A stretch of DNA of 64,000 bases from Gemmatimonadota bacterium (GCA_026702745.1 JAPPBT010000083.1:62001-126000); one strand, 5' to 3'. Counted from the first letter of the stretch, positions 35,939 to 54,878 are shown. Program-made: numbers and translations. The notes: generated by a model from the sequence alone, not told the origin.

Positions 35939-36370
35939 GACAGCAAGTTCTTCAAGGGGAAACAGATACTCGTCTGCCTAGATCTCACTTTCGATAAGCA
36001 AAGGATTTCCATAGGTTTCGAGCAATCGGAAACGGAGAATGAAGGGGTCGCCTAGCAGCAACTTGGCAAGCTTGTAGAGTGCGGCACGCACGTAGAGTGC
36101 GGCACGCACTTAGATCAGGGCGCCTGCGCCGCCTCGGATCCCTCCGTGGCAACAGCCTTGGACGGTGGCCTCGAAGAAACACTCACCGTGTATGGTTTGG
36201 GCATGAGGACCTTTCTCAAACACGGCCTCATAACTACCAACGGCATCGAATCTATAAACAGTTCGTTCGTCAAGAGGACCCAAAACGTCATTTACGATGG
36301 ACCACTGCAACCACAGTCGTCGCTGAAATAGCCGCCGGCTTCACGGACATAGACCCCCACACTCAGCGAG
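35939..36370 (+). pseudogene. IS256-family transposase relic
   Basis: Plus-strand pieces match successive parts of IS256/mutator-type transposases in the correct order but in different frames. They are DSKFFKGKQILVCLDL with GFEQSETENEG (the catalytic-core strand followed by the TEN block), then GGLEETLTVYGLG, then TTNGIESINSSFVKRT, and after a frame change RWTTATTVVAEIAAGF. Stops and frameshifts separate the blocks, and an 18-bp direct duplication occurs at about 36075-36110. The element is dead; its terminal inverted repeats were not identified. Confidence 0.8.
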
Positions 36371-36527
36371 GTCATACACCGTGAACTCGAGATCGTTCCG
36401 AGGTGATGAACGCATAGCCTCGCTCAGCACGGGAGTCAGTTTAGTTTCATCTGGAAACGAGGCTTGACCCGTTTATAGCAAACCGTCGTTGCGCACTGTA
36501 ACAACTTTTATGAAAGGCGTATTTAAA

Positions 36528-37530: not shown

Positions 37531-38835
37531 GCAGGCGGACCCTCACCAAGTGGCGTGGACGTTTTCTCCGTCAGGAGTTTTTCAGATTTTGCGTCTGCGA
37601 CGAGTCCAGACCTAGCCAGCTGCGTAAGCACGGGGACTAAAGGGTGAGGGTCGTGGTTGATGCGACGCTTCATCGCAAACAGCAATACAAATCGCACTGG
37701 AGCGCGAACTCACGCAGAGGAGGTGTCCGTGCCGTGTCACTTCCTCCTTCGGGTATGAAGGCCATCGGCATCAAGCCCTAATCAGTCCAGACTTTCAAGC
37801 TTTCTTTGAAACCCCGCTTCATCAGGGACGGTGCAGGAAATCGTAGGCTAGTACATGAACCCGCCGAATACGACCGTGGTTTCGTGTACGGACAAGAAGA
37901 GTCCGATTTAGGCCTTGGACCGCCCCGCCCTTCCTTTCCGATGATCTTCGGCTTTCCCGAGACCCTCACCCATGACTTCAAACGATTCAGCACGTCAGTT
38001 TACGCCGCCCTGACCCATTCATCAGTTGCGCACGGCGTGTATCGGCCTGTGTCGTCGATGGATGCTTGAAAGTGGGGAACTTAACGATCTGCTAGCTGTC
38101 GACGAGTGCTTCGTGCACGGTGTTGTAGGGTCAATCCAGGAAATCCGCCCTGGTTTCCGCCTTGTAGTATCTGACAGGCTCGACGGGTGCATATCCAAGC
38201 ATCTCGGAGAAGCCGTTGGGAATACGTGCGTGCAGGTACAGCAGCCGCTGCCCGACACCGGGGTTTGGAACTGAAGACATAATGATTTCTTGCTATTCGC
38301 AGGTGTAATTTTCAGTCGTGCGATCAAGCTCTGAAGGCAGCAGACTTCGTTTTATTCGTCTTACCTACTTTCATTCCGTATAATCCATGATATTGATTAT
38401 TAACATATGATAAAAATATCCACTTGACTGTTGTAATCACAGACATACAGATTATCGAATTTTGGGATGTAGTGCGTGCATGTCATTTTAAAAGCGCGTA
38501 TGTAATCACGTTATCCCTGTAGAAACTGACACGTTCGAATAGACCTGGTATGTAGTCATGCTTGCAAGACTGCCCATTCGTCGATCTATTGATGGTAGAT
38601 CAGTACCTGAGTTTCCCATCCCGCCAGTGTACACCTCTCCGTCTCGAAGTACACACAGGCCGGCGCAAGCGCATTTTCTTCTCAATCCAGCGGCCGAATT
38701 CTCAACCCTGTTTAGCCATTGGCTCTACATATGTCAGATATTCACGATCACCTGACCAACGCCGGTTATTACTCGGTCGTTACAAGTAAATTGTTGTTAC
38801 AAGCGTTCGAGGCCGGACCATACACGGGAGGTTGC
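37531..38835. other. Degenerate non-coding stretch upstream of the sigma-54 activator
   Basis: About 1.3 kb with only short, overlapping open frames on both strands and no recognisable family. A 49-codon minus-strand frame near 38130-38280 (beginning MSSVPNPGVGQRLLYLHARI) looks like a gene fragment but I cannot name it. The last few hundred bases (from about 38340) are strongly AT-rich and probably contain the promoter of the regulator gene. Confidence 0.45.
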
Positions 38836-39858
38836 ATGGGATCATCTGGAGAGTATCGCAACAGTTCATCCGAGCAATTCGGGAGTTATCACGAGCATTC
38901 CGCCTTTGAACCGATTATTCACAAGAGCAACGTTATGAAACGTATCTGTTCGATGACCTTACAGTATGCTCAAACGGATTTGCCGGTGTTAATAACAGGT
39001 GAAACTGGTACTGGGAAGGAACTGATCGCCAGGGCGCTTCATGCGGCAAGCCGTCGCGCCGACCAAGCCTTTGTGGTCGTGGACTGTGCCGCGCTGCCCG
39101 AAACGCTGGCTGGGAATGAGCTTTTCGGTCACGAACGGGGCGCCTATACGGGAGCCGACAGAAAACAGCCAGGTCTTTTCGCCGCTGCGAATAAAGGTAC
39201 CATCTTCCTCGACGAAATCGGTGAACTGCCTCCAAGTGCGCAGGCTGTATTACTGCGGGTACTACAGGATGGATCGTATCGACCCTATGGCAGTGTCCGA
39301 CAAATGTATACGGATGTTCGAGTAATCGCAGCAACCAATCGAGATCTGAAGGAGGCCGCAGTTCAAAAATCCTTCCGATTGGATCTCTACCATCGGATCG
39401 GGAGCGCGGTGCTCCAGTTGCCTCCGCTACGGTCACGATTGGCCGACTTACCGTTACTTGTCCGTCACTTCATGAGGAGAACGACTTCTTTCGGTGCTCA
39501 GCCATTGGAAATTTCGCCGGCTGTGATGTCTAGGTTACTTCGACATAAGTGGGAGGGCAACGTAAGAGAGCTCGAAAACAGACTCAGATCGGGGACTGCA
39601 CTGGCGTCTAGCGGTCGGGTTACCGTCGAGGATATCTTCCCTGAAGAAGGTGAGGGAATAGACCGAAATCACGAGATCCCATCACTTCGAGCCGTTAGAA
39701 CCGGTGTATCAAGAGATACTGAAGGGCAATACCTGGAGGGGATTTTAAGGGAAACAAATGGCAACGTTTCGAAGGCTGCGGATATCGCTGGAGTACATCG
39801 TACCCATCTATATAACCTGTTATGTAAATATGAGATAGATCCGTCAGATTACCGGTGA
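38836..39858 (+). CDS. Sigma-54-dependent transcriptional activator without sensory domain (PspF-like)
   Basis: A 340-residue AAA+ enhancer-binding protein. Walker A is GETGTGKE (about residue 55), the sigma-54 contact loop is ERGAYTGA (about 100), Walker B is GTIFLDEIG (about 121), and the second-region-of-homology block VIAATNRDL follows. The C-terminus has a Fis-type helix-turn-helix (NVSKAADIAGVHRTHLYNLL). ATG at 38836 is chosen because GGGAGG precedes it; the frame opens at 38719 without a ribosome-binding site. With this start only about 30 residues precede the AAA+ domain, so there is no receiver or ligand domain and control may come from a partner protein. It probably drives the RiPP operon from the candidate sigma-54 promoter near 40330. 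Confidence 0.88.
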   Translation: MGSSGEYRNSSSEQFGSYHEHSAFEPIIHKSNVMKRICSMTLQYAQTDLPVLITGETGTGKELIARALHAASRRADQAFVVVDCAALPETLAGNELFGHERGAYTGADRKQPGLFAAANKGTIFLDEIGELPPSAQAVLLRVLQDGSYRPYGSVRQMYTDVRVIAATNRDLKEAAVQKSFRLDLYHRIGSAVLQLPPLRSRLADLPLLVRHFMRRTTSFGAQPLEISPAVMSRLLRHKWEGNVRELENRLRSGTALASSGRVTVEDIFPEEGEGIDRNHEIPSLRAVRTGVSRDTEGQYLEGILRETNGNVSKAADIAGVHRTHLYNLLCKYEIDPSDYR

Positions 39859-40320: not shown

Positions 40321-40338
40321 TTGGTATGACTTTTGCTA
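40321..40338 (+). promoter_or_regulatory. Candidate sigma-54 (-24/-12) promoter for the RiPP operon
   Basis: The sequence TTGGTATGACTTTTGCTA has GG and GC spaced by exactly ten bases and a TTGCT -12 block, close to the sigma-54 consensus. It lies about 420 bases before the first operon gene and about 460 bases after the sigma-54 activator gene, which fits a locally encoded activator. Its distance from the first start codon implies a long leader. No experimental support. Confidence 0.5.
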
Positions 40339-40755: not shown

Positions 40756-41079
40756 ATGAAGAAATGGTTTCAGATTGGAAAAACCTCCTACATGGATGCA
40801 GGCTGTAAACTACTACCTCGTAAGTTCGCTAGAATCGTTAAGACGGAAGACGGAGCTATCGCTTTATCCATTAATACATTTCGGTATTACTATTTGAACG
40901 AGATGGCTTACGACATCTGGCAATTGTTATTGCAGGAAGACAGTCCAATCAAGGCATATGAAAGACTGTTGACCGAATACGATGACATTCCCCAAGAAGA
41001 CATGTACAACGATTTCAGTGGAGTGTGTCAGTTCTTTTTAGATAACAAGCTATGGTATATCAGGCGTTCTTGGAGTTAA
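40756..41079 (+). CDS. PqqD-like RiPP precursor recognition element (RRE) protein
   Basis: A 107-residue PqqD-fold protein. It shows the winged-helix pattern ALSINTFRYYYLNEMAYDIW (a strand followed by the first helix), then EDSPIKAYERLLTEYDD and a final helix with FFLDNKLWY. PqqD-type proteins bind leader peptides and present them to modifying enzymes. Because it directly precedes two radical SAM/SPASM genes, it probably serves those. A second, different RRE protein lies at 47967 beside the precursors. A GGAG site precedes the ATG. Codon use is AT-rich like the rest of the island. Confidence 0.82.
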   Translation: MKKWFQIGKTSYMDAGCKLLPRKFARIVKTEDGAIALSINTFRYYYLNEMAYDIWQLLLQEDSPIKAYERLLTEYDDIPQEDMYNDFSGVCQFFLDNKLWYIRRSWS

Positions 41080-41105
41080 CTACAAAATTCCGTCAGGAGT
41101 AACTA

Positions 41106-42170
41106 GTGGAAAACTCTCCGTGTCATGATCTGTTCGTGGAACTTACTTCAAAATGCAATTTGAGATGTATCCATTGTTACAACTCATCCGGAATTGAACG
41201 CCATAAACTGAAGTTGGATCTGATAAAGAAAACCCTGGCCGACTCACAAGAACTGGGCACAAATGTGGTTCAGTTCACTGGCGGTGAAACAATGTTATAT
41301 CAAGGACTTATTGAGCTTCTGGAGCTCGCAAACGAATTAGGTTATGCCGAAACTTGGATTATAACAAATGGAACGGTTTTCAAGAAAGAAATCCTAGAAA
41401 AGTGCAGAGATCTTTCGGTTAAGTTACAAATAAGTCTTGATGGCGGCACTGCGGAAACAAACGACGAGCTACGAGGTAAGGGTGTGTTTAATCGGGTATT
41501 GAACTTCCTTGAATTGCTTAACGAGTTTGACCTGAACAGATCTGCACAGATTCGTTGCACGGTTTCTCGTAACAATCTGGACTCGACTGAGCATCTGATT
41601 CAGGTTGGTCTACGCTACGATATTCCTAAGATTCATTTTTCGTGGGCGAAATACGAAGGTCGTGCAAGAGACGATAACACATATTCGGATATTCAATTTG
41701 CACCAACTGAAGTTCAACACGCCATCAATCATACGGCTGAATTAATGACAAAATACCAGAACGAAATCGAAGTATCACGGCTTCGTGCACATAGGAACCA
41801 ATGTCCGATTTACAGGGATGCCGTCCCCTGTGGTAGCTTGAGGATTGCCTATGACGGTCGAGTGTTTCCATGTCAGGGATTGGTTAAGGAAGGACATGAA
41901 CTGGGTGATCTAAACCATGAGGACCTTCCTGATATAGTTACAGATTCTCGCCTTAAAGCCCTAAGCAATAAACTGAACGCTGAATTTCAAGCGTGCCGGC
42001 GTTGCGCTTTTAAGAGTATTTGCCCAGGTGGTTGCCCGTCACTTGGCGAATACATTATCGAAGAACAGCCGGAGAACTTCGACGCATTTTGCACGGCACG
42101 AAGGATATCGTTCCGAGATGATCTTTTCAGGTCTCGTGGACTGCCTGAACCCCAGATGGCCGTTCAATAA
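41106..42170 (+). CDS. Radical SAM/SPASM peptide-modifying enzyme 1
   Basis: This 354-residue radical SAM enzyme has the 4Fe-4S/SAM motif CNLRCIHC at Cys 17, 21 and 24 and a GGE motif (FTGGETMLY, about residue 58). The C-terminal SPASM domain has Cys at about 233, 242 and 256 and the cluster CRRCAFKSICPGGC (about 297-310), which should bind auxiliary clusters. Such enzymes use a 5'-deoxyadenosyl radical to install thioether, carbon-carbon or epimerised linkages in RiPPs or to mature quinoproteins. The GTG start follows a CAGGAG site. It lies between an RRE gene and a second radical SAM gene; its substrate is inferred to be the lasso-type precursors at 47018 and 47580. Confidence 0.9.
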   Translation: MENSPCHDLFVELTSKCNLRCIHCYNSSGIERHKLKLDLIKKTLADSQELGTNVVQFTGGETMLYQGLIELLELANELGYAETWIITNGTVFKKEILEKCRDLSVKLQISLDGGTAETNDELRGKGVFNRVLNFLELLNEFDLNRSAQIRCTVSRNNLDSTEHLIQVGLRYDIPKIHFSWAKYEGRARDDNTYSDIQFAPTEVQHAINHTAELMTKYQNEIEVSRLRAHRNQCPIYRDAVPCGSLRIAYDGRVFPCQGLVKEGHELGDLNHEDLPDIVTDSRLKALSNKLNAEFQACRRCAFKSICPGGCPSLGEYIIEEQPENFDAFCTARRISFRDDLFRSRGLPEPQMAVQ

Positions 42171-42229
42171 AACTCCACCGCACCGTGTAGGGTAGCGGAC
42201 AACGCCAAGTAGATAAGAGGGTATTTATC

Positions 42230-43513
42230 ATGACCGAACTGTTAGCAATAGAGACCGCGTGGTCTCCACCAGATAACATCATTACCGCAGCAAGAGAAAG
42301 AATGCTTCAAGAGAAATACAAAACTGAAGGAGAAGAGATTCGAGGTTTAGTCATAGTAATGAAACTCACCGGCGCATGTAACATCAAATGTTCGTATTGC
42401 TATGCAACACCCGAACTTATCGGTGGGAACACGTCTACTGATCTTGCCATAAACACCATCGCCCATGCCGCATATAGTCATTCCGGCCCGATCGTCATCG
42501 ACCTACACGGCGGCGAGCCACTATTGATGTTCGACCGAATCAAGACGATTGTAGAGGATACCGAACAACGACCGTATGCTTGGCGGGTGAGATTCAACAT
42601 ACAAACAAATGCATTGTTACTTAATCGGCATATAGCGAGATACCTCCATACACACAACATTAGCATCGGCATCAGTCTTGACGGTCGTGGAGATGTTAAC
42701 GATATCCTACGCAAAGATCACGACGGGAAGGGTACATTTGACCGTGCTATGAAAGCCATAGAAATGTTGCGTGAGGAAAACATCCCCTTTGGTGTTATCT
42801 CAATCTTAACCAAGGTGAATCATGATAAGGTTATTGAAATGTTCGAGTTTTACAAGGAACTGAATCTAACCGTAGTCATGTGTAATGCACTTTCCCTTTC
42901 AGGTAGAGGGAACGGCAAGATACATCTACTGCCGAGCCCTATTGAGTACTTTGAATCGAGCAAACGCATTCTTGATTGGATGATTGAGCACAATTCAACC
43001 AATGAGACACCTATGTATGAATGGGACCTGTCTTTAATGGTACAACGAGTTGCGGGAATACTCAATCCCGCCGAAACAGTATGTCATAACTCTCCATGCG
43101 GAATTGGAAAGGAAACCATCTCTGTAACACCTGATGGTAGTGTCTATCCATGCGACTGGCTTGTTGGGCTAAACGAATACAATATGGGGAACATCAAAGA
43201 GCAATCGTTAAACGACATAATGAGGAACAACGGGGTTCTAGATCAATTAAGGATCCCTCATACCGAACGTGTTTTGGAATGCCGTGAGTGTGAATTGAAT
43301 ACGATCTGCAACGGAGGCTGTCTGGCCAGAAACATACTGGCCTATGGGCGAGAAGGCATTACTAGAGTTGCCGGAATGTGTGCGTATTACATGCAGATTT
43401 TGCCATACATAAAATCACTATTGGAGCAAGGTGTTGAGCTAAGTCACATTTCGTATCCCAAGGACGGTATCCAACCACCGTTCGATTCAGAAGATGGCTG
43501 TTTTGTAGACTAA
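42230..43513 (+). CDS. Radical SAM/SPASM peptide-modifying enzyme 2
   Basis: A 427-residue protein with radical SAM motif CNIKCSYC (Cys 50, 54, 57), LHGGEPLLMF (about residue 84) and a SPASM domain that includes CHNSPCGIG, SVYPCDWL and CRECELNTICNGGC (about residues 285-365). The HGGEPL form and overall length resemble the anaerobic sulfatase-maturase-like and cyclophane-forming groups. It differs greatly in sequence from enzyme 1, so the two probably perform different or successive reactions. The tail ends in an acidic region with a Cys (DSEDGCFVD). Eleven bases separate it from the kinase-like gene. Confidence 0.9.
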   Translation: MTELLAIETAWSPPDNIITAARERMLQEKYKTEGEEIRGLVIVMKLTGACNIKCSYCYATPELIGGNTSTDLAINTIAHAAYSHSGPIVIDLHGGEPLLMFDRIKTIVEDTEQRPYAWRVRFNIQTNALLLNRHIARYLHTHNISIGISLDGRGDVNDILRKDHDGKGTFDRAMKAIEMLREENIPFGVISILTKVNHDKVIEMFEFYKELNLTVVMCNALSLSGRGNGKIHLLPSPIEYFESSKRILDWMIEHNSTNETPMYEWDLSLMVQRVAGILNPAETVCHNSPCGIGKETISVTPDGSVYPCDWLVGLNEYNMGNIKEQSLNDIMRNNGVLDQLRIPHTERVLECRECELNTICNGGCLARNILAYGREGITRVAGMCAYYMQILPYIKSLLEQGVELSHISYPKDGIQPPFDSEDGCFVD

Positions 43514-43524
43514 GGAACAATCAA

Positions 43525-44529
43525 ATGCGATTCTACCGTGCGTTCGGGAATTCAATCGCGAGTTCCATACCACTACCGTTAATAGAAACACAACAGCGCA
43601 CTTCCCCTGATTTAGTCTTTACGGTGGAGTACGATCAAATTGATTTCAGTGACACTGATTTCACGGGATTCGAGAGGAAGAACTCAGCCGGTCGATCTTT
43701 CGGTGATCGGTCACCCGTGGCGTTTTTTTATGATTCGCGACGAGTTGTCCTCTATCCGGGAGAAGCATGCTATACAATCACGTTAGGCCAACCAGTTAGT
43801 ATCCACTGTAGGGTATCATCCGGAACCGTACTCGACATAGTGGCGGATACATTCGTCGATGATATAGTGAGTTTGGTTACTCTAATGCAAGGCGGAATCG
43901 CACTACATGCCGGATGTGTCGAAGTAAATGGGTTTAGGTTTTGCATCTTTGGAGACTCTGGATTTGGAAAAAGCACGACAGTTACTTCACTAACCAGGCT
44001 TGGTTGTGATTTTCTAAGTGATGATGTAACCACCGGGCGCATCGTAAACGACCAATTCGAGGTGCATTCGAGTTTTCCTTATGTCAGGCTTTGGGATTCA
44101 TCTGCCGACCGAGTGATCCCCAAGTATGAAGGAATATCAATTGCAGGTAAACCAGGAAAGAAAAGGTATCGTGTAACTGACTGGACTTCGGAAAAGCAGA
44201 CCTGGCGAAGACTAGATTTGGCCTACTTAATGAGACCATTCCCGTCACTGGAAGCAGAATCTGTTACGAATGGTTCAAAGATGGGCATGTATATAACGTT
44301 AATCAAATCCATCATGATGGGCTTCGCTCTAACTGCTAGGGAATGGGAAATAGTACAACAGACATGTTACCATATTTCAAGCTGGACAAGGTTTCATTTG
44401 GTCTCTTACGCTATTAAGATTGAGCGTGCAGAGAAGGTAGCTGAGTTAATCATGCGTCATGTAGCCCAAACTCAAACAGAATCGAACAACATGAGAGGTA
44501 GCCATGAGCTTTGTTTGCGGTCTGTTTGA
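43525..44529 (+). CDS. HPr-kinase-like protein (lasso-cluster kinase type)
   Basis: A 334-residue protein related to HPr kinase C-terminal domains. The P-loop is GDSGFGKST (residues 143-151), preceded by the GIALHAGCVEVNG block and followed by LGCDFLSDDVT, which carries the paired Asp. Such kinases occur in lasso peptide clusters of Firmicutes and related bacteria, where the characterised ones phosphorylate the C-terminal Ser of the precursor. The precursors here end in Asn, so the target must be another residue or the role different. It overlaps the cyclase gene by 26 bases. Confidence 0.82.
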   Translation: MRFYRAFGNSIASSIPLPLIETQQRTSPDLVFTVEYDQIDFSDTDFTGFERKNSAGRSFGDRSPVAFFYDSRRVVLYPGEACYTITLGQPVSIHCRVSSGTVLDIVADTFVDDIVSLVTLMQGGIALHAGCVEVNGFRFCIFGDSGFGKSTTVTSLTRLGCDFLSDDVTTGRIVNDQFEVHSSFPYVRLWDSSADRVIPKYEGISIAGKPGKKRYRVTDWTSEKQTWRRLDLAYLMRPFPSLEAESVTNGSKMGMYITLIKSIMMGFALTAREWEIVQQTCYHISSWTRFHLVSYAIKIERAEKVAELIMRHVAQTQTESNNMRGSHELCLRSV

Positions 44530-46399
44530 ACGAAATGGTAGACGGGCTGATGAGTGCGATTTAGATAAAATGATCGAGGCTGGACTTACACTAAATGAGG
44601 AGAGCATCAGCCACCTCCTGTCTCCACCTTGCGTGAAGCAATTGGACAATGCCATTGCAGGTGTCACAACTTGGCCACACAGTCGTGGAACGCAACTCGG
44701 CAGCCCGGTTCACCTTGAAGGTAATCTACTTACTTGGACCGGTCGACTGGATAACCGAGACGAGTTGGTCGGAGAGCTGAACGAAAGGGGCACCTCTCTC
44801 ACTCAAACCGTCAAGGACGATGAAATCGTCGCTTGGGGAGTTTACTTGTTCGGCGGTGAGGTTTATGTCAAGAAAATGATCGGTGATTATGCTTTTGCTG
44901 TCGTAGAAAGCAATAAAAACGAAGTCTTTTTAGCAAGGTCACCATTCGGCGTAAGAGAGTTGTACTATCTTGTTTCGGCATCGCGTACAGCATGGGCATC
45001 AAATCTAGCTCAGATTATACCGATACTAACAGACACGATCGACGAAAAACACTTAAAGGTTTATATAGCAGAATACCTTTGCTGTACGGCCAAAGGTCGT
45101 ATGGCGCATACCCCGTATAGGAACGTGTACAAGTTACTTCCTGGCAGGTTTCTTCGGATTTCAACTGGCGGACTTACATCCGGTGAGATATGGTCACCTG
45201 ACGAAACAAAAGCAGAACGTTATTCTACGAATGAAGAATATGAGGAACGCTTTCGTCAACTCTTGTCGACTGCGATTCGTAGAAGATTAGCCTCTTGTGG
45301 AAGCAACGGGATTCAGATCAGTCTGAGTGGTGGCTTGGACTCATCAACTGTTGCTAGTATGATTGGCCATATGCGTGAAAATGGTGAGTCGCTGCCAAGA
45401 ATCCAGCTTTTTACAAACGTTTATCCAGGGCAAGGAGATGAAAGCGAGTACGCACGTACTGTAGCCAAACAAACTACATTTCCCTTAGAGATCGCGAGAT
45501 CGTTCGAAAAAAACTGGTTGCTTAAAGGCTGTGATTCTCTACAGAGGCTACCAGAGCCTCAGGAGTCAATTCTTGAGAACCGAATTGGACTTGAAGAAGA
45601 ACTCAAACAAGGCTCACTGACGCCCTATATGTCCGGTTTAGGAGGTGATCAAATCCTAACCGGTAATCTTATCTATCTAGCAGGCTACCTTAAGAAATGG
45701 AAGATGGCCACGTTTTTTAATCAAATACGTCAACTTTCTCAAAAATCAAAACAATCTGTAGTCAGTTTAGCTGTTCAATATGGCTTAAAGCCTGTCTTGG
45801 ATCGTAGTCAGTTTCAGTTCAGAAGGCGTGGTATAGCTTTTAGTATAACAACAGAAACCTTTCGAAAACAGTACTCACTTAAAGAGCGGCTCGAATCTCG
45901 CTATCTACCTGTTGCTTACTCGGATCCTTCTGCCCAGGACGACTACGAAAGTCTTCTCTCATTGCACCAATGGTCTTGCCCTGGATTTAGCATTTTGGAT
46001 ATGAGAACACCGTACTTGGATACTGATTTGGTTGAGTTTTGTCTGACACTTCCAGGTAAACTACGAAATGATGGATTGCATGACCGAGTAATCATGCGGC
46101 GGGCAATGAAGGACATACTGCCCCCAAAAATTCTGCACAGAAGATCACAGGGAAGTACAGAAGACAGTATCACCTTTGGATTAAACAAAGAATGGCATCG
46201 AATCGAATCACGTTTAGGGAATTTCTATCTGGCACAACTAGATATTATCTCTAACGAGAACTTGGAAATCCTGCTAAGACGCGCAAGGGCTGGAGCATTG
46301 AGATATGATGTGTTATCCGGAATACAGATTCTTACGCTAGAGTTCTGGTTAGAAACAATACTGGGTCATGAATCAAATCCTATATTTCACAGACCTTGA
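44504..46399 (+). CDS. Asparagine synthetase-like lasso peptide cyclase (C protein)
   Basis: This 631-residue protein has an N-terminal class II glutaminase-like domain (SFVCGLFERNG; LTWTGRLDNRDELVGEL; DYAFAVV). The synthetase domain follows with the PPi loop SLSGGLDSSTVASM (about residue 273) and LGGDQILTGN (about 378). In lasso biosynthesis this enzyme adenylates the Asp/Glu side chain at core position 7-9 and closes the macrolactam with the N-terminal amine. Here the expected acceptor is Glu 8 of both cores. It overlaps the kinase gene and is followed by the B2 peptidase gene. Confidence 0.9.
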   Translation: MSFVCGLFERNGRRADECDLDKMIEAGLTLNEESISHLLSPPCVKQLDNAIAGVTTWPHSRGTQLGSPVHLEGNLLTWTGRLDNRDELVGELNERGTSLTQTVKDDEIVAWGVYLFGGEVYVKKMIGDYAFAVVESNKNEVFLARSPFGVRELYYLVSASRTAWASNLAQIIPILTDTIDEKHLKVYIAEYLCCTAKGRMAHTPYRNVYKLLPGRFLRISTGGLTSGEIWSPDETKAERYSTNEEYEERFRQLLSTAIRRRLASCGSNGIQISLSGGLDSSTVASMIGHMRENGESLPRIQLFTNVYPGQGDESEYARTVAKQTTFPLEIARSFEKNWLLKGCDSLQRLPEPQESILENRIGLEEELKQGSLTPYMSGLGGDQILTGNLIYLAGYLKKWKMATFFNQIRQLSQKSKQSVVSLAVQYGLKPVLDRSQFQFRRRGIAFSITTETFRKQYSLKERLESRYLPVAYSDPSAQDDYESLLSLHQWSCPGFSILDMRTPYLDTDLVEFCLTLPGKLRNDGLHDRVIMRRAMKDILPPKILHRRSQGSTEDSITFGLNKEWHRIESRLGNFYLAQLDIISNENLEILLRRARAGALRYDVLSGIQILTLEFWLETILGHESNPIFHRP

Positions 46400-46452
46400 A
46401 TGTAATAGATCGTCGAACCTTTAATTAACTCAATATAAGGAAAAGGAGTATT

Positions 46453-46827
46453 ATGAGATTCGAGGCGATTATCCTCATAGGTCTAGTGAGGGCCGTAATT
46501 CGATTTTCAGGTTTTTGGCTGATTTACACCGCCATCGGCCTAGTCTGGAGAGTGAACCGGTTACACGCCAATAAACAAAGAGAAATCGACATGCGCACTG
46601 TACAGCAAGTATTCGCAACAATTGATGCGGTGCTACAAACGGAAGTGTTCCCTTCTCAGTGCCTTTATCGTTCATGCGTTGCGCATATTATGCTGTTCTA
46701 TCGAGGAATACCCTCACGGTTCAGGATAGGTGTAAAATCCAACCCGTTTTCAGCACATGCATGGTTGGAATGGAATGAAACACCGCTCATGGAATCAGAA
46801 TCTTGTGGTTTGCATGTTATCCTGTAA
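46453..46827 (+). CDS. Transglutaminase-like lasso leader peptidase (B2 protein)
   Basis: A 124-residue member of the McjB C-terminal / lasso B2 family, a papain-like protease that cuts the leader off before the Gly of the core. The catalytic Cys is Cys 70 in PSQCLYRSCVAH and the His is His 102 in FSAHAWLEW. An N-terminal hydrophobic segment (FSGFWLIYTAIGLVW) is typical of B2 proteins. It is slightly short at the C-terminus, so the third catalytic residue is not obvious. The 3' 211 bases of this gene are repeated exactly at 47176-47387. Downstream come the two precursor genes. Confidence 0.87.
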   Translation: MRFEAIILIGLVRAVIRFSGFWLIYTAIGLVWRVNRLHANKQREIDMRTVQQVFATIDAVLQTEVFPSQCLYRSCVAHIMLFYRGIPSRFRIGVKSNPFSAHAWLEWNETPLMESESCGLHVIL

Positions 46828-47173
46828 CGCCCTACGGGAACTTACCGTCTGACAAACTACACATATTCACATTTACCAAGGAGGTGATGTCCATAGCAAA
46901 TTAGATATTTTAGTAGTTAGTTTGAGTCGATTTTGTCTGGGACTTCTGAGTTACGATCTTGATTCAAGAATAAACTCAGTGTCTTCGTTCAACTTCCCAA
47001 GATTGGGGGGAAAGTAAATGGCTAGCGAGAAGAAACAGTACTCGAAACCGGTGGTACTTGATCTCGGTGACGCCGCTGAACTTACAGCTGGGTTCAGTTC
47101 TGGCGGTTCGGAAACTATCGGAGTTTGTTTGTTCGGCTATCTTTATTGGGAGAACTCGGTTGAGCAACGGTTT
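46616..47173. repeat. Tandem duplication, unit 1 (B2 3' end, spacer, precursor A1)
   Basis: The first copy of a direct duplication of about 560 bp. It runs from codon 55 of the B2 gene through the intergenic spacer to the antepenultimate codons of the first precursor. It is identical to unit 2 over its first 358 bases (46616-46973); all differences lie in the last 200 bases. Confidence 0.97.
46878..46888 (+). promoter_or_regulatory. Perfect Shine-Dalgarno sequence without a matching gene, copy 1
   Basis: AAGGAGGTGAT is a full complement to the 3' end of bacterial 16S rRNA. It lies about 130 bases before the A1 start. The only nearby frame is a five-codon one (ATG at 46887, ending TAG). It could be the initiation site of a tiny leader peptide or a remnant of a lost gene start. 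The second copy is at 47438. Confidence 0.7.
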
Positions 47174-47185
47174 AACAACAATTGA
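47018..47185 (+). CDS. Lasso-type precursor peptide A1
   Basis: A 55-codon gene with a GGGGGG ribosome-binding stretch seven bases before the ATG. The leader (residues 1-24) contains Tyr 8, Pro 11, Gly 17 and Thr 23 at exactly the spacing of the lasso leader motif Y-x2-P-x-L-x3-G-x5-T-x-G, with Val in place of Leu at residue 13. The predicted core starts at Gly 25 (GFSSGGSE, then TIGVCLFGYLYW, then ENSVEQRFNNN). Gly 1 and Glu 8 of the core allow an eight-residue macrolactam ring with a 23-residue tail containing bulky aromatic plugs and a single Cys. The C-terminal NNN is created by the duplication junction. It follows the B2 gene. Confidence 0.85.
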   Translation: MASEKKQYSKPVVLDLGDAAELTAGFSSGGSETIGVCLFGYLYWENSVEQRFNNN

Positions 47186-47387
47186 TGCGGTGCTACAAAC
47201 GGAAGTGTTCCCTTCTCAGTGCCTTTATCGTTCATGCGTTGCGCATATTATGCTGTTCTATCGAGGAATACCCTCACGGTTCAGGATAGGTGTAAAATCC
47301 AACCCGTTTTCAGCACATGCATGGTTGGAATGGAATGAAACACCGCTCATGGAATCAGAATCTTGTGGTTTGCATGTTATCCTGTAA
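47176..47387 (+). pseudogene. Duplicated 3' fragment of the B2 leader peptidase gene
   Basis: An exact copy of the last 70 codons of the B2 gene, from TIDAVLQTEV to the stop, retaining the catalytic Cys and His codons but without its own start or ribosome-binding site. The frame is open upstream only through out-of-frame precursor sequence (from about 47058), so translation as a functional B2 is unlikely. It is a passenger of the tandem duplication. Confidence 0.88.
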
Positions 47388-47437
47388 CGCCCTACGGGAA
47401 CTTACCGTCTGACAAACTACACATATTCACATTTACC

Positions 47438-47448
47438 AAGGAGGTGAT
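47438..47448 (+). promoter_or_regulatory. Perfect Shine-Dalgarno sequence without a matching gene, copy 2
   Basis: This is the duplicated copy of the site at 46878, about 130 bases before the A2 start, again followed only by a five-codon frame. Confidence 0.7.
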
Positions 47449-47579
47449 GTCCATAGCAAATTAGATATTTTAGTAGTTAGTTTGAGTCGATTTTGTCTGG
47501 GACTTCTGAGTTACGATCTTGATTCAAGAATAAGCTCAGTGTCTTCGTTCAACTTCCCAAGATTAGAGGGGGAAAGTAA

Positions 47580-47744
47580 ATGGCTAGCGAGAAGAAACAG
47601 TACTCGAAACCGGTGGTACTCGATCTTGGTGACGCCGCTGAACTTACAGCTGGGTACAAATCTGGCGGTTCGGAAACTTTCGGAGTCTGTTTGTACGGCT
47701 TTATTTATTGGGAGAACTCGGTTGAGCAACGGTTTGGTAACTGA
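47580..47744 (+). CDS. Lasso-type precursor peptide A2
   Basis: A 54-codon paralogue of A1. The leader is identical in protein sequence (two synonymous changes). The core reads GYKSGGSE, TFGVCLYGFIYW, then ENSVEQRFGN. It differs from A1 at core positions 2, 3, 10, 15, 17 and 18 and at the end, while Gly 1, the SGGSE ring half, Cys 13 and YWENSVEQRF are unchanged. The ribosome-binding site GAGGGGG is closer to consensus than that of A1, so A2 may be the better expressed. It is followed by a strong hairpin at 47851 and then the RRE gene. Confidence 0.87.
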   Translation: MASEKKQYSKPVVLDLGDAAELTAGYKSGGSETFGVCLYGFIYWENSVEQRFGN

Positions 47745-47850
47745 ACGAGACTATGTCAAGTGTTTATAAGCGTTCTGTCCACACAAACGTCTCCCGCGAG
47801 TAGGGAATCTTTATAGGTGCCAGGACAATTCGTTTGTGAACAGGTTGCCT

Positions 47851-47889
47851 GTTTTCCGGGCCAGGATTTCAACATTCTGCCCGGAAAAC
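47851..47889 (+). terminator. Strong hairpin between the precursors and the downstream operon genes
   Basis: GTTTTCCGGGC and GCCCGGAAAAC form a perfect 11-bp stem around a 17-base loop. No long T-run follows directly, so it may be a partial terminator or an mRNA-stabilising processing hairpin. It would let the precursors be made in excess over the B1 and transporter genes, a common arrangement in RiPP operons. Confidence 0.65.
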
Positions 47890-47966
47890 ACCGTTTATTC
47901 ACGTCTCTGACGTCAGTTAAGTTACCTCCTATGCCTGCCTTCTCAAACAAGTAGGGGATAGTTCCG

Positions 47967-48275
47967 ATGAAAGCAAATCAACTGCTGGATAAACCGGCAG
48001 ATGTCATTGCCCATAGATTTGAAGATGGCATGGTTGTTTATGTAGGCGACAATGATCGTTTTCTCGGCTTAGACAGTATGGGTGCGGTTATCTGGGATTA
48101 TCTGTGCTCACACGGTAGTGTAAACACTGTTGTAGAGACAATGCTTCTCGAATACGACATCGACGAACATACACTACGTGAAGACGTTGAATCGTTATGT
48201 CGACAAATGATTGAGTGTGGTGCGCTAAAACCCAAGCACGACGGAGAGAAAGGTAAAAAAGAAATTGGAATTTAG
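47967..48275 (+). CDS. PqqD-like RRE protein (lasso B1 protein)
   Basis: A 102-residue PqqD-fold protein with the blocks FEDGMVVYVGDNDRFLGLDSMGAVIWDYL, here described as a strand pair followed by a helix, then SVNTVVETMLLEYDID and a last helix ESLCRQMIECGAL. In lasso clusters with split B proteins, B1 binds the leader through its conserved Tyr and Pro and delivers it to B2. Adjacent B2, precursor and C genes support this role. Its C-terminus overlaps the exporter gene by 11 bases. It is clearly different from the RRE protein at 40756. Confidence 0.85.
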   Translation: MKANQLLDKPADVIAHRFEDGMVVYVGDNDRFLGLDSMGAVIWDYLCSHGSVNTVVETMLLEYDIDEHTLREDVESLCRQMIECGALKPKHDGEKGKKEIGI

Positions 48276-50094
48276 AGAATTCAAGAGACTACCCAGGTGG
48301 TTTAAAGAAGGATACAGAGCCAATCCGGTGGTGTTCTTTGTTTTCACTTTTGCTACCTGCATTCAAGGACCACTTTTAGCCATTGCCGTGCTTTGGTCTG
48401 GTAAATTGGTCGATCAAGTACCTGGTTTCATCGAAGGAAATGTAACGAATGTACAGGTACTGTTAACGTCATTGGTTATACTAGGCATCGGACTCTTAGT
48501 TACTTCCGGTGTTTTTGTACAGATGATAGCAAAAGGTCGTTTACAAGACAGCATTGCGTACAAAATCAAACGTCAACTCCTGCAAGCATCACTCGAAACG
48601 GACTATCTGGCATTCCTTAAATCAGAAAAGCAAAACCGTTTGGATCGCATCTTAAGAGGGTTTGATATGGATCTGACGTTATTGCTTATGGATTCAGTTT
48701 CTTGCCTGGGAACGACATGGACAATCGTTTCATATCTTGGCATCATCGGATTCACATCTAGCTGGTATGTAGCAATTGCTGGGCTACTTTTTTTTGTGCC
48801 GATAACTTTCATAAACCTGAAGTTAGTACAAAAGGAGTTCAAATTCGACCAGAAGGTTTCTTCCGACGATAGACGTATAAAATACACTGAATACGTCCTT
48901 ACTGGATCGAACACGGCAAAAGAGATCAAGTTGTTTGGCTTGGGAGGGTATTTATCAAGAATTTGGGAGGCTAGATACAGAAAACTGAAATCAGGTAGAT
49001 CTCGAATTGAAATACACCAACATATTTGGAAGGCCAGCACCCAGATTATGGCTTTGGCTATATCAGCTGGTTTGTTGTTTCTGGTTTTAGGTCGAGGCGG
49101 TGTTTCACCCGGAGAGTTCCTGGTCATCCTAACAGCATTGACATTCATTCAAAGTGGTTTGGTCGAAATTAGCAAGACAACGGCTACATTGGTTCTACGC
49201 TTGGAAAGACTGGAAGAGATTGATACTTATTTACGGGAAAAAGACCCATTAGAGTACTACCAAATCAACGAGCAAAAAGTACTACCTGTGAACTCCAACC
49301 ACACGAGGCCTGCCATCGTGATTGAAAATGTATCTTTCTCTTACGATACGGGAAAAAACTGGGCACTTAAGAATATAGATCTGACAATAAACCCTGGTAA
49401 GAAGATCGCTCTTGTCGGAATGAATGGTGCGGGTAAATCTACTATTATCCATCTTCTACTGGGGCTTTATCGACCATTGACCGGCAGAATTCTGATCAAT
49501 GGCTATCAACCGTATGGTATGGATTCTAAAACCCGTCACAAAATGATCTCTGCAGTATTTCAACAGTTTGGCAGATATCATGGCTTAACATTGTGGGAGA
49601 ACATCTCATTAAGTTCGTTCGATCCTGCCTTCAGCCCAGGTGACCTTCTAGTAGGCGGTTCTGAGTTGTTCCCGACTCTTGAAGACAAAATGGGTTTAGT
49701 TGTGGGTAAGGAATTCGATGGAACTGAACTGTCAGGAGGGGAGTGGCAACGAATTGCATTAGCCCGTGCCATGATGTTGAATACCCCTATCGTCATTCTT
49801 GATGAACCTACTGCGGCTTTGGATCCGTTGGGCGAAGCAGGTTTGTTTAACGAATTTATGGGTTTACTTCACAAAAAGACAGTTATCGTTGTTACACACC
49901 GTTTAGGATCAATAAAAGAGGCTGATGAAATCATTGTACTCAAGGACGGTCAAGTTGAGGAAATAGGTAATCATGACGAACTGATAAATCGTCAAGGTCA
50001 CTATTGGCAAATGTTTGAGGCACAAGCGGAATGGTACAGGGAACCCGCTGCAGAAATACACTCCACTTCACTTCAAGAGTCCAATCAGAACTGA
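48265..50094 (+). CDS. ABC exporter half-transporter 1 (lasso D-type)
   Basis: A 609-residue fused membrane and ATPase protein. The first about 320 residues contain five to six membrane helices. The ATPase has Walker A GMNGAGKST (about residue 385), signature LSGGEWQRIALARA (about 489) and Walker B VILDEPTAALD. There is no N-terminal C39 peptidase domain, in keeping with leader removal by B2. Start is TTG overlapping the B1 gene. It probably pairs with half-transporter 2 as a heterodimer for peptide export and self-immunity. Confidence 0.9.
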   Translation: MEFREFKRLPRWFKEGYRANPVVFFVFTFATCIQGPLLAIAVLWSGKLVDQVPGFIEGNVTNVQVLLTSLVILGIGLLVTSGVFVQMIAKGRLQDSIAYKIKRQLLQASLETDYLAFLKSEKQNRLDRILRGFDMDLTLLLMDSVSCLGTTWTIVSYLGIIGFTSSWYVAIAGLLFFVPITFINLKLVQKEFKFDQKVSSDDRRIKYTEYVLTGSNTAKEIKLFGLGGYLSRIWEARYRKLKSGRSRIEIHQHIWKASTQIMALAISAGLLFLVLGRGGVSPGEFLVILTALTFIQSGLVEISKTTATLVLRLERLEEIDTYLREKDPLEYYQINEQKVLPVNSNHTRPAIVIENVSFSYDTGKNWALKNIDLTINPGKKIALVGMNGAGKSTIIHLLLGLYRPLTGRILINGYQPYGMDSKTRHKMISAVFQQFGRYHGLTLWENISLSSFDPAFSPGDLLVGGSELFPTLEDKMGLVVGKEFDGTELSGGEWQRIALARAMMLNTPIVILDEPTAALDPLGEAGLFNEFMGLLHKKTVIVVTHRLGSIKEADEIIVLKDGQVEEIGNHDELINRQGHYWQMFEAQAEWYREPAAEIHSTSLQESNQN

Positions 50095-50118
50095 GTTGTA
50101 AGCCCTAAGGGGGTATTT

Positions 50119-50376
50119 ATGCTATGGAATATGGTTGCCGGCTTCACAAACAGTATTATTGATTTTTCACTCTTAAATACCGGGACTGTCTGGCTAGGAT
50201 TGACTGTCATTGGGATCTGTATCTTCGTTATTATTGTATTCTGGACATATAGAGACGCCCGACAACGAATAGACTGTCCTTTCTTGGCAGCGTTGATGGT
50301 GTTTTTTGCGGGACCCGTCGGACTGTTAATTTGGTTAGTGTTTCGACCTAGAAAACCAGACGCTAATCATCGTTAG
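50119..50376 (+). CDS. Small two-helix membrane protein (PLDc N-terminal-like)
   Basis: An 85-residue protein with two membrane helices: WLGLTVIGICIFVIIVFWTY, and ALMVFFAGPVGLLIWLVF separated from it by a short YRDARQRIDC loop. The pattern of second helix with GPxGxxxW resembles PLDc_N-type small membrane proteins. It lies between the two exporter genes and could be an accessory or immunity factor. A GGGGG ribosome-binding run precedes the ATG. Confidence 0.7.
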   Translation: MLWNMVAGFTNSIIDFSLLNTGTVWLGLTVIGICIFVIIVFWTYRDARQRIDCPFLAALMVFFAGPVGLLIWLVFRPRKPDANHR

Positions 50377-50392
50377 TCTATAGTAACACTGC

Positions 50393-52201
50393 GTGGATGT
50401 TCGAGGGTCAACTGGTTCACCCGGAGCTAATAGCGTGTTAAAAGAGTTGATTGAGAAGTCATATCTGTTGCGAATGATGTTACTACTTACGTCGCTTGAC
50501 AGATTTCGGGTCATTCCGCTATTGGGGCTTGCCGTTCTTCGTGGAGTACTACCGACAATTGATCTCTGGATAATCGCTCAACTTGTAGACGCTCTGGTCT
50601 CGTGGGAAGGAAATCTTCTGTCAACCTTTGGATTCTGGCTAAGTACCCTGATTGGATTGCGTATCGTTGGAGAAGTAATCTCCCTGGGGATGTCGTATAT
50701 AGGTGTGAAAATACGAGATCGTGTAGATATACACCTTAAACGTACGTTGTTTGCTCACATCAACGAAATCGGATTGCTGGAAAGGGAATCATCCAATTAC
50801 GCGGATCGTGTATCTCGTGCGAATTCAGCGACGAATCCAACAAGAATAACCATATTGTTGGAGAGCGTTCCGAAAACCATATCTGAATTTGCCGGAATGA
50901 TCTCATTGATGGTACTATTGTTTAGTATTTTTTGGCTTATTCCTGTTTTAAACATTGTTCTTCTTAGTCTCTGCATTTTCGCACAGGCCAAAGCCAGTGT
51001 CGTGTTCTTTTCGCAGTTTTATAGTCAGACTCAAGAACAACGTCTACTAGAGACCTACGAGCATGCCTTGTTCAGTAAAGATCAAGCTGGTGAGGTTAGG
51101 TTTTTCGGTTTTGGAAAGTGGCTCTTGGCAAAATGGGAGAGGTTATTCGTCACGTTTTCTAAACAACGCAGGAAAACAGTCAATAAACAGGCAAGAACCG
51201 GTAGGATCTCAGAGTGGGTTATGATCTCATTCCTTCCTACTACATCCGCTTTAGTTTTAATTTTTGGAGTTCAGGAAGTCACCGCAGGAAGTGTTATCAT
51301 CGCACTTCAGTCTACGCAACATCTGTCTTCAAAACTCTACTTTATTTTGAATCAATTTCAGTCTTTTGTTGAATCCCGGCAAATGCTTAAAGAGTTCTTT
51401 TCATTCCTGGACGAAGTACCACAGGATGGGAATTCAGTTGAACCCCTTGTAGCAAAAGGGTTGAGTATTCAATGTTCTAATATGGGATTTACATATCCAA
51501 ATCAGAAAGAACCTGTCCTTGAGGATGTAAACTTGAATATCGCTCCAGGGGAGCATATTGCCATAGTGGGTGAGAATGGTTCTGGTAAATCTACACTTGT
51601 TAAATTACTAATGGGATTATACTTACCTACCGAGGGTCAAGTTACACTGTCGTCCAACAACAAAACAGGAACCTGTGCTAACAACAATTACCGAATATCC
51701 GCTTTATTTCAGGATTACGTCAAGTACAATTACAAATTGCGTGAGAATATCGGCTTTGGCGATTATCGATTCATAGATGATCAGCAACGACTAAGCGCGG
51801 CAGCTAGAAAATCTGAGTGCCTTGAGATTGTGAACGAAGCTGGACTCGACATACAGATTGGTAGAGAATTCGAAGGCATCGAATTCTCAGAAGGCGAATG
51901 GCAACGGATAGCCCTCTCGCGGACACTATTCAGGGAAGATTGCGGTCTCATTACCCTGGATGAACCCACCGCCGCTCTTGATGCCATTAGTGAAGCTAAG
52001 ATATTGAGAGGATTTCTTCAAATAGACCGTGAAAGAACCTGTCTGTTTGTTTCTCATCGGCTTGCTTCTATCCGTCTTGCTGATCGCATTTTGGTATTAA
52101 AGGAAGGACGGATTGTCGAGCAAGGTTCACATCAGGAACTTATGGAAAATTGTGGAGAATACAGTCGTCTGTTTAATACTCAAGTTAGTGCGTATTCTTG
52201 A
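50393..52201 (+). CDS. ABC exporter half-transporter 2 with degenerate signature motif
   Basis: A 602-residue membrane-ATPase fusion. It has Walker A GENGSGKST (about residue 395), Walker B GLITLDEPTAALD and an H-loop FVSHRLAS. The ABC signature reads FSEGEWQRIALSR, with Glu replacing the first Gly of LSGGE. Such degenerate signatures are usual in one half of heterodimeric exporters, supporting pairing with half-transporter 1. It lacks a peptidase domain. The GTG start is 16 bases after the small membrane protein. This is the last gene of the contiguous operon. Confidence 0.9.
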   Translation: MDVRGSTGSPGANSVLKELIEKSYLLRMMLLLTSLDRFRVIPLLGLAVLRGVLPTIDLWIIAQLVDALVSWEGNLLSTFGFWLSTLIGLRIVGEVISLGMSYIGVKIRDRVDIHLKRTLFAHINEIGLLERESSNYADRVSRANSATNPTRITILLESVPKTISEFAGMISLMVLLFSIFWLIPVLNIVLLSLCIFAQAKASVVFFSQFYSQTQEQRLLETYEHALFSKDQAGEVRFFGFGKWLLAKWERLFVTFSKQRRKTVNKQARTGRISEWVMISFLPTTSALVLIFGVQEVTAGSVIIALQSTQHLSSKLYFILNQFQSFVESRQMLKEFFSFLDEVPQDGNSVEPLVAKGLSIQCSNMGFTYPNQKEPVLEDVNLNIAPGEHIAIVGENGSGKSTLVKLLMGLYLPTEGQVTLSSNNKTGTCANNNYRISALFQDYVKYNYKLRENIGFGDYRFIDDQQRLSAAARKSECLEIVNEAGLDIQIGREFEGIEFSEGEWQRIALSRTLFREDCGLITLDEPTAALDAISEAKILRGFLQIDRERTCLFVSHRLASIRLADRILVLKEGRIVEQGSHQELMENCGEYSRLFNTQVSAYS

Positions 52202-52532: not shown

Positions 52533-54878
52533 ATGATCAGCAACTACCTGAAAACAGCCCTAAGAAACATCATACGGAGCAAAGGACACAGCGTCATCAA
52601 CGTATTCGGCCTTTCAGTAGCTATGGCCTTGTGCATCCTGATTTTCCTGCTCGTTCGACAGGAGTTAAGTTACGATGACTTCCATGAAAAGGGCGCCAAC
52701 GTCTTTCGTGTCTCGAAAACGGCCTTCATGGGAGAGTATCGGACGATTGGGATGACGCCAGTACCCCTTGCTCCGGCGCTGGACGACGCGTATGCGGGTA
52801 TAGTCCGAACCGTTCGATATGCTAATACCGAACCGGTTCTGGTGAGTTCTGGAGACGTGACCGTCCGTGAAGAAACGGTTTTCTATGCCGACCCAGGGTT
52901 TTTTGATTTATTTACCTTTCAGGCCGTTTCCGGCTTTCTCGAGGGTGCCCTTGAAAGCAGATCCCGTGTAATACTAAACGAACAAATTGCAGAGAAGTAC
53001 TTTGGAGACGCCGACCCCGTCGGAGAATGGTTGACTATGGACGACCGGAAACACCAGGTGGCCGGCGTAGTCCGGGTACCCGCCAATACCATCTTTCAGT
53101 TCGACTTTCTGATTTCAATGAAGATCCTGACAGAGGCTGGCAACAGCAGGAATAAGAGCTGGGCGTGGGATGTTGCTGCGACCTTTGTGGAACTGACCGG
53201 TCCTGAAGTCGCCGGAACCCTGGAGTCCCAGTTTCCAGAATTCGTTGAAAAGCACTTCATTAGGTTTCGGGGGACAGATGCCAGCGTAATGCGACTTCAG
53301 CCGCTAGCCGACATCTATCTGGATTCTTCGATATTGTTCGACCTTTTCCCAAAGAGCGACATTGTCGTTTCATATGTGCTGGGAACACTCGGCTTCCTCC
53401 TTCTATTCATCGCGTGTATCAACTTCATCAACGTGACACTAGGCAGATCGGTTCTACGCGGAAAGGAAGTCGGCGTACGCAAAACGCTGGGCGGAACCCG
53501 TCCTCAGATAATGAAACAGTTCTGGGGGGAGGCGTTGCTGGTGGGCGTTGCAGCGCTTATACTGGGTTTGTCGTTAGCACATCTGCTGCTTCCCGGATTC
53601 AACAGCCTGTTCGCCAAAGACCTCCGGATCGATTACTTCGAAAGTGGATCGACACTCCTCGCGCTGATCGGCCTTACGGGTCTAGTCGTCCTTATATCCG
53701 GAAGCTATCCCGCGCTCTACATGTCCCGCCTCGATCCCACCTCCATCCTTACGCATCATGTAAAGGCCGGAGCATTGACGATCTTAAGCAAAGTGCTAAT
53801 CACCATGCAGTTCACGCTTTCGATCTTCCTGATGATCTGCCTGTTTACCATACTTCGTCAGCTTCAGTATTTTGCCTCCCAGGATCTTGGCTTCGATACG
53901 TCGAATGTGCTTGTTGTAAGCATGCCCGAATCCGGAATGCTCGAGCCCTTAAAAGAGGCGTTAGACGATTACCCTCAGATCACCTATATCTCCGCGGCGT
54001 CGAGCTCATTCGGTCCGATGAGGGGTTTGGGGCAGATAGGTCACACCGACGAGTCGGGCAAGCAGTTTTCAGCCTACGAATACCACGTGGATTATGACTA
54101 TCTGCCCGCGCTGGGCATCGCGTTGGTGGAAGGACGCGACTTTTCGAGAACATACGCCACGGATGAGACCGAAGGTTTGATCGTAAATGAAGCGCTGGTT
54201 AGGGAAATGGGATGGGAAAATCCGATCGGAGAGGCTATACCTGGTGGCAATGCCCGTGTGATCGGCGTGACGGAAGATTACCATTACCGATCATTACAAT
54301 ACGACCTGGAACCGGTGGTACTGCGTCTTGCTCCTGACAGGATCCGGTTTCTTCTGATCAGAACGCGGCCGGAAGGAATTCCGCAGACCCTATCAACTGT
54401 CAAATCGGTCTGGGAGCGTATCTCAGCAGGTTTGCCGTTTGAATACTACTACCTTGAGGATGATATCGGCCGGTTCTATCAAAGAGAACGGTTGCTGGGA
54501 GATATAGCGCTATACATCGCTATAATCACGCTTTTGATTGCCCTGCTGGGCGTATACAGCCTGAGCTTGTTAAACATCAACAGGAGAACGAAGGAAATCG
54601 GTATCCGAAGAGTGCTAGGCGCATCAACGTTTAACACGACGGCTTTGATCGGAAGGCAGTTTGCGCTGCCACTGGCCATCGCAATCATGCTGGCTTGCCC
54701 GCCTGGCTATCTATTGCTGAACTTCTGGCTTAGTATGTACGAGTTCAACGCCGCATTGGGTATCGGCGAGTTCGTATTGGCTGGTATGGCGGCTCTGGTA
54801 CTCGTGCTGGCCACGGTGGCCTTTCAGGTTTGGAGAAAAAACGCGAATCCCCTGGTCGAGTCGTTGGTGTACGAATGA
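52533..54878 (+). CDS. ABC transporter permease, FtsX/MacB type
   Basis: A 781-residue permease with an N-terminal helix (SVINVFGLSVAMALCILIFLLV), a MacB-type periplasmic core domain, a three-helix FtsX unit (residues about 275-430), a second periplasmic domain and a last FtsX unit (about 655-775) with NINRRTKEIGIRRVLGAS, a strongly conserved cytoplasmic loop. Its GC content is intermediate between island and host genes. Its likely ATPase is the high-GC gene at 57362, with the nucleotidyltransferase gene lying between. It could export another substrate and be unrelated to the lasso peptide. Confidence 0.88.
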   Translation: MISNYLKTALRNIIRSKGHSVINVFGLSVAMALCILIFLLVRQELSYDDFHEKGANVFRVSKTAFMGEYRTIGMTPVPLAPALDDAYAGIVRTVRYANTEPVLVSSGDVTVREETVFYADPGFFDLFTFQAVSGFLEGALESRSRVILNEQIAEKYFGDADPVGEWLTMDDRKHQVAGVVRVPANTIFQFDFLISMKILTEAGNSRNKSWAWDVAATFVELTGPEVAGTLESQFPEFVEKHFIRFRGTDASVMRLQPLADIYLDSSILFDLFPKSDIVVSYVLGTLGFLLLFIACINFINVTLGRSVLRGKEVGVRKTLGGTRPQIMKQFWGEALLVGVAALILGLSLAHLLLPGFNSLFAKDLRIDYFESGSTLLALIGLTGLVVLISGSYPALYMSRLDPTSILTHHVKAGALTILSKVLITMQFTLSIFLMICLFTILRQLQYFASQDLGFDTSNVLVVSMPESGMLEPLKEALDDYPQITYISAASSSFGPMRGLGQIGHTDESGKQFSAYEYHVDYDYLPALGIALVEGRDFSRTYATDETEGLIVNEALVREMGWENPIGEAIPGGNARVIGVTEDYHYRSLQYDLEPVVLRLAPDRIRFLLIRTRPEGIPQTLSTVKSVWERISAGLPFEYYYLEDDIGRFYQRERLLGDIALYIAIITLLIALLGVYSLSLLNINRRTKEIGIRRVLGASTFNTTALIGRQFALPLAIAIMLACPPGYLLLNFWLSMYEFNAALGIGEFVLAGMAALVLVLATVAFQVWRKNANPLVESLVYE

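Follow-up and report, generated by a model that had tools for sequence, protein, structure and literature searches.

A lasso-type peptide operon that also encodes two radical SAM/SPASM enzymes in a Gemmatimonadota bacterium

The described clusters closest to the one reported here are those of the paeninodin and pseudomycoidin type from Firmicutes, which, in the parts of PMC9266682 drawn on here, combine the genes B1, B2 and C with a kinase (K) carrying a His-Lys-Asp-Asp set, an NTP_transf_5 gene and an ATP-binding cassette (ABC) exporter. The same parts of that review list phosphorylation, glycosylation, methylation, acetylation, hydroxylation, epimerisation and citrullination as lasso tailoring reactions, and mention radical S-adenosylmethionine (SAM) enzymes only for other ribosomally synthesised and post-translationally modified peptides (RiPPs). 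The operon that begins at position 40756 of the window (the whole stretch of 64,000 nucleotides analysed here, GCA_026702745.1 JAPPBT010000083.1:62001-126000, from a Gemmatimonadota bacterium) resembles these clusters in all of the listed genes. What sets it apart from them is a pair of added radical SAM/SPASM enzymes, an additional RiPP recognition element (RRE), the presence of two ABC halves, and its precursors, which end in NNN and GN and lack a C-terminal Ser, the residue modified by PadeK and PsmK. We consider it rather likely that the products of this one operon are two related lasso-type peptides on which both radical SAM/SPASM enzymes also act; this is a claim about a common substrate and not about the chemistry. 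The preliminary description of this DNA knew of no characterised lasso pathway employing two radical SAM enzymes, and we found none with any such enzyme in the literature searched, which missed some key papers. Lasso peptides with biaryl links have reportedly been described by Saad et al. (2023), in which an oxidative side-chain cross-link is made by a P450 and not by a radical SAM enzyme.

Gene run and duplicated precursors

The run proposed earlier, from an RRE to an ABC half at 40756-52201, is confirmed by a list of the open reading frames (ORFs) and by family scans: every named gene is present and on the plus strand (Table 1), and together they form a tight operon. The distances separating RRE 1, radical SAM 1, radical SAM 2, K, C and B2 are, in order, 26, 59, 11, -26 (an overlap of K and C) and 53 nt. 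The lasso set of B1, B2, C, precursor and exporter genes recognised at the outset is likewise borne out, by matches to NF033537, NF033535, NF033530/PF05402, NF033521 and PF00005. A B2, a C, a discrete RRE (B1) and precursors are the components by which a lasso cluster is defined from sequence, and all are found here; that the product is threaded is a prediction. B2 has its Cys70 and His102. The best model for C is NF033535, yet the match lies below the strict NCBI cut-off of that model; C carries the SGGxDS motif and is distant from every solved enzyme. K has H128, K149, D166 and D167 in the conserved columns, the His-Lys-Asp-Asp set known from lasso kinases in the part of PMC9266682 consulted.

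The two precursors, A1 and A2, were assessed by three features, a YxxP leader, Thr at position -2 and an Asp or Glu acceptor at core positions 7-9. Their leaders are identical (MASEKKQYSKPVVLDLGDAAELTA), that of A1 ending in YSKPVVLDLGDAAELTA, and cleavage is predicted just before Gly1. The predicted cores are GFSSGGSETIGVCLFGYLYWENSVEQRFNNN for A1 and GYKSGGSETFGVCLYGFIYWENSVEQRFGN for A2, each with Gly as its first residue, Thr at -2 and Glu at position 8, the normal lasso acceptor.

The second precursor is evidently the product of a tandem duplication of 560-562 bp (46616-47175 and 47176-47737) that took in the 3' half of B2 together with the precursor gene. The B2 portion shows no difference over 300 bp, whereas between the two precursor genes six core residues have changed, the C-terminal tail has been rewritten and three changes are synonymous; the core changes set against none in the B2 copy give p ~6e-7. 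Kept in both cores are G1, E8, C13 and the block Y19-W20-E21-N22-S23. The duplication junction lies within the final codons of A1, whose tail it rewrites while leaving the frame almost intact. The six-residue difference reflects either a core selected to change after duplication or recombination of two alleles, and the invariance of G1, E8, C13 and YWENS amid a changed core is what would be seen if selection acts on the core as the product. The second B2 half is probably a relic and, because it is headless, the operon has one full B2.

A search of every gap for plus-strand small ORFs with a ribosome site, and for YxxP-like leaders in six frames, found no third precursor, and A1 and A2, both of which have good ribosome sites, are therefore the sole candidate substrates inside the operon for both machineries. 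A separate peptide for the radical SAM block was rejected for this operon, the gap scan on both strands having given none.

The operon probably ends at 57078, taking in the gene for a protein with fused NTP_transf_5 and CBM9 domains that is probably a tailoring enzyme; homologues of NTP_transf_5 recur next to B2/K loci. Upstream of the MacB/FtsX-type permease gene, whose membership is uncertain, there is a gap of 331 nt.

Table 1. Features of the operon and its surroundings, in window coordinates
Feature	Coordinates	Strand	Support
Sigma-54 dependent activator (AAA+ / HTH_8)	38719..39858	+	PF00158 2.1e-62
RRE 1, PqqD-like	40756..41079	+	PF05402 2e-8
Radical SAM/SPASM enzyme 1, 354 aa	41106..42170	+	PF04055 5.6e-22, PF13186 1.2e-8
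Radical SAM/SPASM enzyme 2, 427 aa	42230..43513	+	PF04055 1.3e-18, PF13186 8.3e-12
HprK-like kinase (K)	43525..44529	+	PF07475 (Hpr_kinase_C-like) 2.8e-5, under Pfam cut-off
Lasso cyclase C, asparagine synthetase-like	44504..46399	+	NF033535 2.8e-63
B2 leader peptidase, transglutaminase-like	46453..46827	+	NF033537 58.6 bits (cut-off 33)
Precursor A1	47018..47185	+	NF033521 23.1 bits (cut-off 19)
Duplicated 3' half of B2, without start and N-terminal half	47183..47387	+	300 bp identical to 46616-46915
Precursor A2	47580..47744	+	NF033521 21.6 bits (cut-off 19)
B1, PqqD-type RRE	47967..48275	+	PF05402 7.1e-11, NF033530 4e-9
ABC exporter half 1	48265..50094	+	PF00005 3e-29, PF00664 3.9e-6
Small membrane protein, 85 aa	50119..50376	+	ORF, hydrophobic sequence
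ABC exporter half 2	50393..52201	+	PF00005 5.2e-26
MacB/FtsX-type permease, membership uncertain	52533..54878	+	PF12704 6.2e-32, PF02687 1e-22
NTP_transf_5 + CBM9 protein (fused domains)	55138..57078	+	PF14907 1e-32, PF06452 4.1e-12

The radical SAM enzymes and a possible route to the product

Both radical SAM proteins have radical SAM and SPASM Pfam domains above the cut-offs, and in both the CX3CX2C motif, the SPASM CX2CX5CX3C motif and the flanking cysteines read as intact. Neither reaches the NCBIfam cut-off of DynA, StsB, PapB, CbpB or ScmE. Radical SAM 1, which meets no NCBIfam equivalog cut-off, is nearest to StsB, PapB and ScmE (StsB at 123 of 625 bits). Radical SAM 2, below all family cut-offs, is nearest to DynA and CbpB; its best score, for DynA at 174.9 of 450 bits, is a likeness to the maturases of the DynA, DarE and XncB/OscB types, which form cyclophanes or cross-links, but one so far under every family cut-off that function is not inferable from it. 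The solved chain nearest to radical SAM 2 is 5wgg. A SynChlorMet cassette, considered for its matches to ScmC, ScmD, ScmE and ScmF, was ruled out, every match being far under its cut-off.

A hybrid pathway, as put forward in the preliminary description, is the best and most economical reading of the anatomy of this one genome, namely the layout with its gaps and overlaps of 11-59 nt, the intact motifs and the lack of a rival precursor. Conservation does not support it: no conserved set was found elsewhere. From the anatomy we infer joint action on one peptide, and with it the order of steps and the chemistry outlined here. Tentatively, and with more doubt than confidence, we propose that the two radical SAM/SPASM enzymes, with the second RRE working on the same leader, cross-link the tail (e.g. 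W20-N22) before threading and so yield a doubly constrained knot. RRE 1 would bind the shared leader (YxxP...LTA) and offer the still linear precursor to both radical SAM enzymes, which would oxidise core side chains, most plausibly through a cross-link; candidate sites present in both cores are W20-E21-N22 (aromatic-x-Asn) and C13, and these are guesses only. K, and perhaps also the NTP_transf_5 protein, would then decorate a hydroxyl. B1 would pass the leader to B2, which would cut after LTA; C would link the Gly1 amine to Glu8 and thread the tail; and the paired ABC halves would export the product.

That the radical SAM enzymes act ahead of B2 and C is the more probable order because known lasso tailoring (phosphorylation, methylation, hydroxylation and epimerisation, in the part of PMC9266682 consulted) acts on the linear precursor. 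The choice of W20-N22 as a specific candidate follows from the three-residue cyclophane enzymes, which connect Trp with Cbeta of the Asn or Asp at position i+2 (PMC11002830); the aromatic-x-Asn motif in the core is a likeness to the triceptides (PMC11002830). If both enzyme types do act on one peptide, nature would have combined threading and the making of C-C or C-S bonds by radical chemistry, the system would reveal whether B2 and C tolerate a pre-installed cross-link, and it would offer enzymes for more rigid lasso scaffolds.

Relatives in other genomes and alternative explanations

We looked for members of the lasso B2 family in three sets, 384 diverse genomes and about 300 each from the phylum that includes a Chloroflexi bin and from that of Magnetospirillum. 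From these, 107 B2 loci were fetched and scored with local home-made profiles, a gene counting as a neighbour when it lay no more than 6 kb away in the same orientation. Such profiles can overlook divergent cyclases, most of all in the Magnetospirillum phylum, and the rates are approximate. C accompanies B2 in 50 of the 107 loci and a radical SAM gene does so in 11, ten of them without C, which leaves a single locus (L148) with both. Nine of the loci (L135-L138, L142 and L144-L147) resemble the present operon in pairing a lasso-type B2 with radical SAM and, in most, with a PqqD and an HprK-like kinase, and differ from it in having no C and one radical SAM. Leaders of the form YxxPxL, resembling those of lasso precursors, are seen in L136 (YTKPTLTKHKPLRDITA), L142 and L145. 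These nine loci may represent a recurrent type of radical SAM peptide that uses the lasso leader peptidase, and the presence of B2 with radical SAM in the absence of C, in some cases with YxxP leaders, indicates that this leader system is one with which substrates of radical SAM enzymes can work. There thus seems to be a B1/B2/K module common to lasso cyclases and radical SAM enzymes, both of which occur in this operon, and the sharing of a B2/RRE/kinase module could account for the origin of such hybrids.

L148 (G165:C5:127500-146500, from a phylum represented by only two genomes here) is like the present operon in having K, RRE, radical SAM, ABC, B2, B1 and C in one run. It has four lasso cyclase genes, two of which overlap at their 3' ends with lasso precursors. 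Unlike the present operon it has one radical SAM, and this is provided with its own precursor, of non-lasso type and containing Cys (MMKNQDRKSPIGRKPYKKPELVYSKMVEALAIVCDSSRSPGFTCRTVGNASCVKTRD), located after the radical SAM gene and before the ABC gene.

Single-protein scans of genome and viral contigs found no relative of C, so conservation was tested by other routes; a search for C among 399 Streptococcus-phylum genomes and in one tiny phylum gave distant single matches only, and a homologue on a Priestia plasmid adjoins PqqD and B2. For radical SAM 2, the best 80 matches listed in the genome scan were examined for their neighbours, and no lasso genes lie beside them, the one exception being a short and doubtful match to C in L020. 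The closest relatives among these matches, L010 and L022, are from Bacillota and have a PqqD-like sequence nearby. The plasmid relatives of radical SAM 1 do not adjoin lasso genes. In a quick tree radical SAM 2 groups with L010 and L022 (Shimodaira-Hasegawa-like approximate likelihood ratio test, SH-aLRT, 95) and radical SAM 1 is left unplaced on a long branch; with the radical SAM-B2 loci, radical SAM 1 shows only a weak grouping and radical SAM 2 none.

Several of these results weigh against a hybrid pathway. No second genome with the same gene set was found among those surveyed, and the neighbourhood check that the preliminary description proposed does not support it, with no homologous operon and with relatives of both radical SAM enzymes away from lasso genes, L010 and L022 included. 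That description had also named a radical SAM/RRE block occurring elsewhere only with an unrelated precursor as telling against its reading; in L148 the radical SAM has a precursor of its own. The predicted core of 30-31 residues is long for a lasso peptide, and a further precursor may be encoded elsewhere in the host genome, the gap scan having covered the operon. Finally, the cross-link is a weak guess, because both radical SAM enzymes fall below every characterised family cut-off.

One alternative is that two pathways lie side by side, RRE 1 and the radical SAM block acting on another precursor, encoded elsewhere or not recognisable, while an ordinary lasso peptide comes from the lasso genes. 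The arrangement in L148, where a K-RRE-radical SAM set with its own precursor adjoins lasso genes, is a precedent for it, and it would fit both the lasso-free surroundings of the radical SAM 2 relatives among the matches listed and the low identity (27%) of RRE 1 to B1. We nonetheless regard it as unlikely, given that no operon gap holds such a precursor and that the radical SAM genes, K and C are tightly packed in the same direction. A peptide without a lasso fold, for which C makes an unthreaded lactam or other amide and the radical SAM enzymes set the main architecture, would agree with the ten loci in which B2 stands with radical SAM and without C, and with the remoteness of C from solved enzymes and its score under the NCBI lasso cut-off. 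Yet NF033535 is the closest model for C, the Priestia relative of C sits with PqqD and B2, and Thr at -2, G1 and E8 are kept, as expected for lasso closure, and we give this explanation a small chance. Slighter still is the prospect that the operon belongs to a decaying or silent island, parts of which no longer yield a product: it lies in an AT-rich insert private to one species among those compared, with a degenerate left flank and a partial B2 duplicate, but all of the main genes are open with their motifs intact, and the precursor changes concentrate in the core with the frame kept.

Genomic setting

Over about 38-58 kb of the window the GC content is 42-50%, and for the cluster 42-46%, against 61-65% in the rest of the contig. 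In six of the seven congeners tested, homologues of an MFS (major facilitator superfamily) gene (33779-34966) and an antiporter gene (58662-59699) lie on one contig about 0.4-0.5 kb apart, whereas here they are separated by 23.7 kb. Because these flanking genes adjoin in the congeners, 34970-58660 is a 23.7-kb AT-rich insertion in this species, and the operon is horizontally acquired, foreign DNA. The cyclase C was not found in the other 11 genomes of the genus, and the genes flanking the island are 81-97% identical to those of congeners. A misbinned contig was ruled out, the island lying within a 195-kb contig with genus-conserved genes on both sides. This island insertion, the tandem duplication, the extension to 57078 and the lack of any other precursor-like ORF in the gaps are additions to the preliminary description.

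The left flank of the island is degenerate. Short ORFs on that side, at 36079-36384, resemble by eye the remnant of an IS256-type transposase.

A -24/-12-like box (TTGGTATGACTTTTGCT) at 40321, upstream of RRE 1, scores 11 of 13, where about 0.3 sites scoring at least 10 are expected per shuffle. Its presence suggests that the sigma-54 dependent activator encoded upstream (Table 1) is a possible regulator of the operon.

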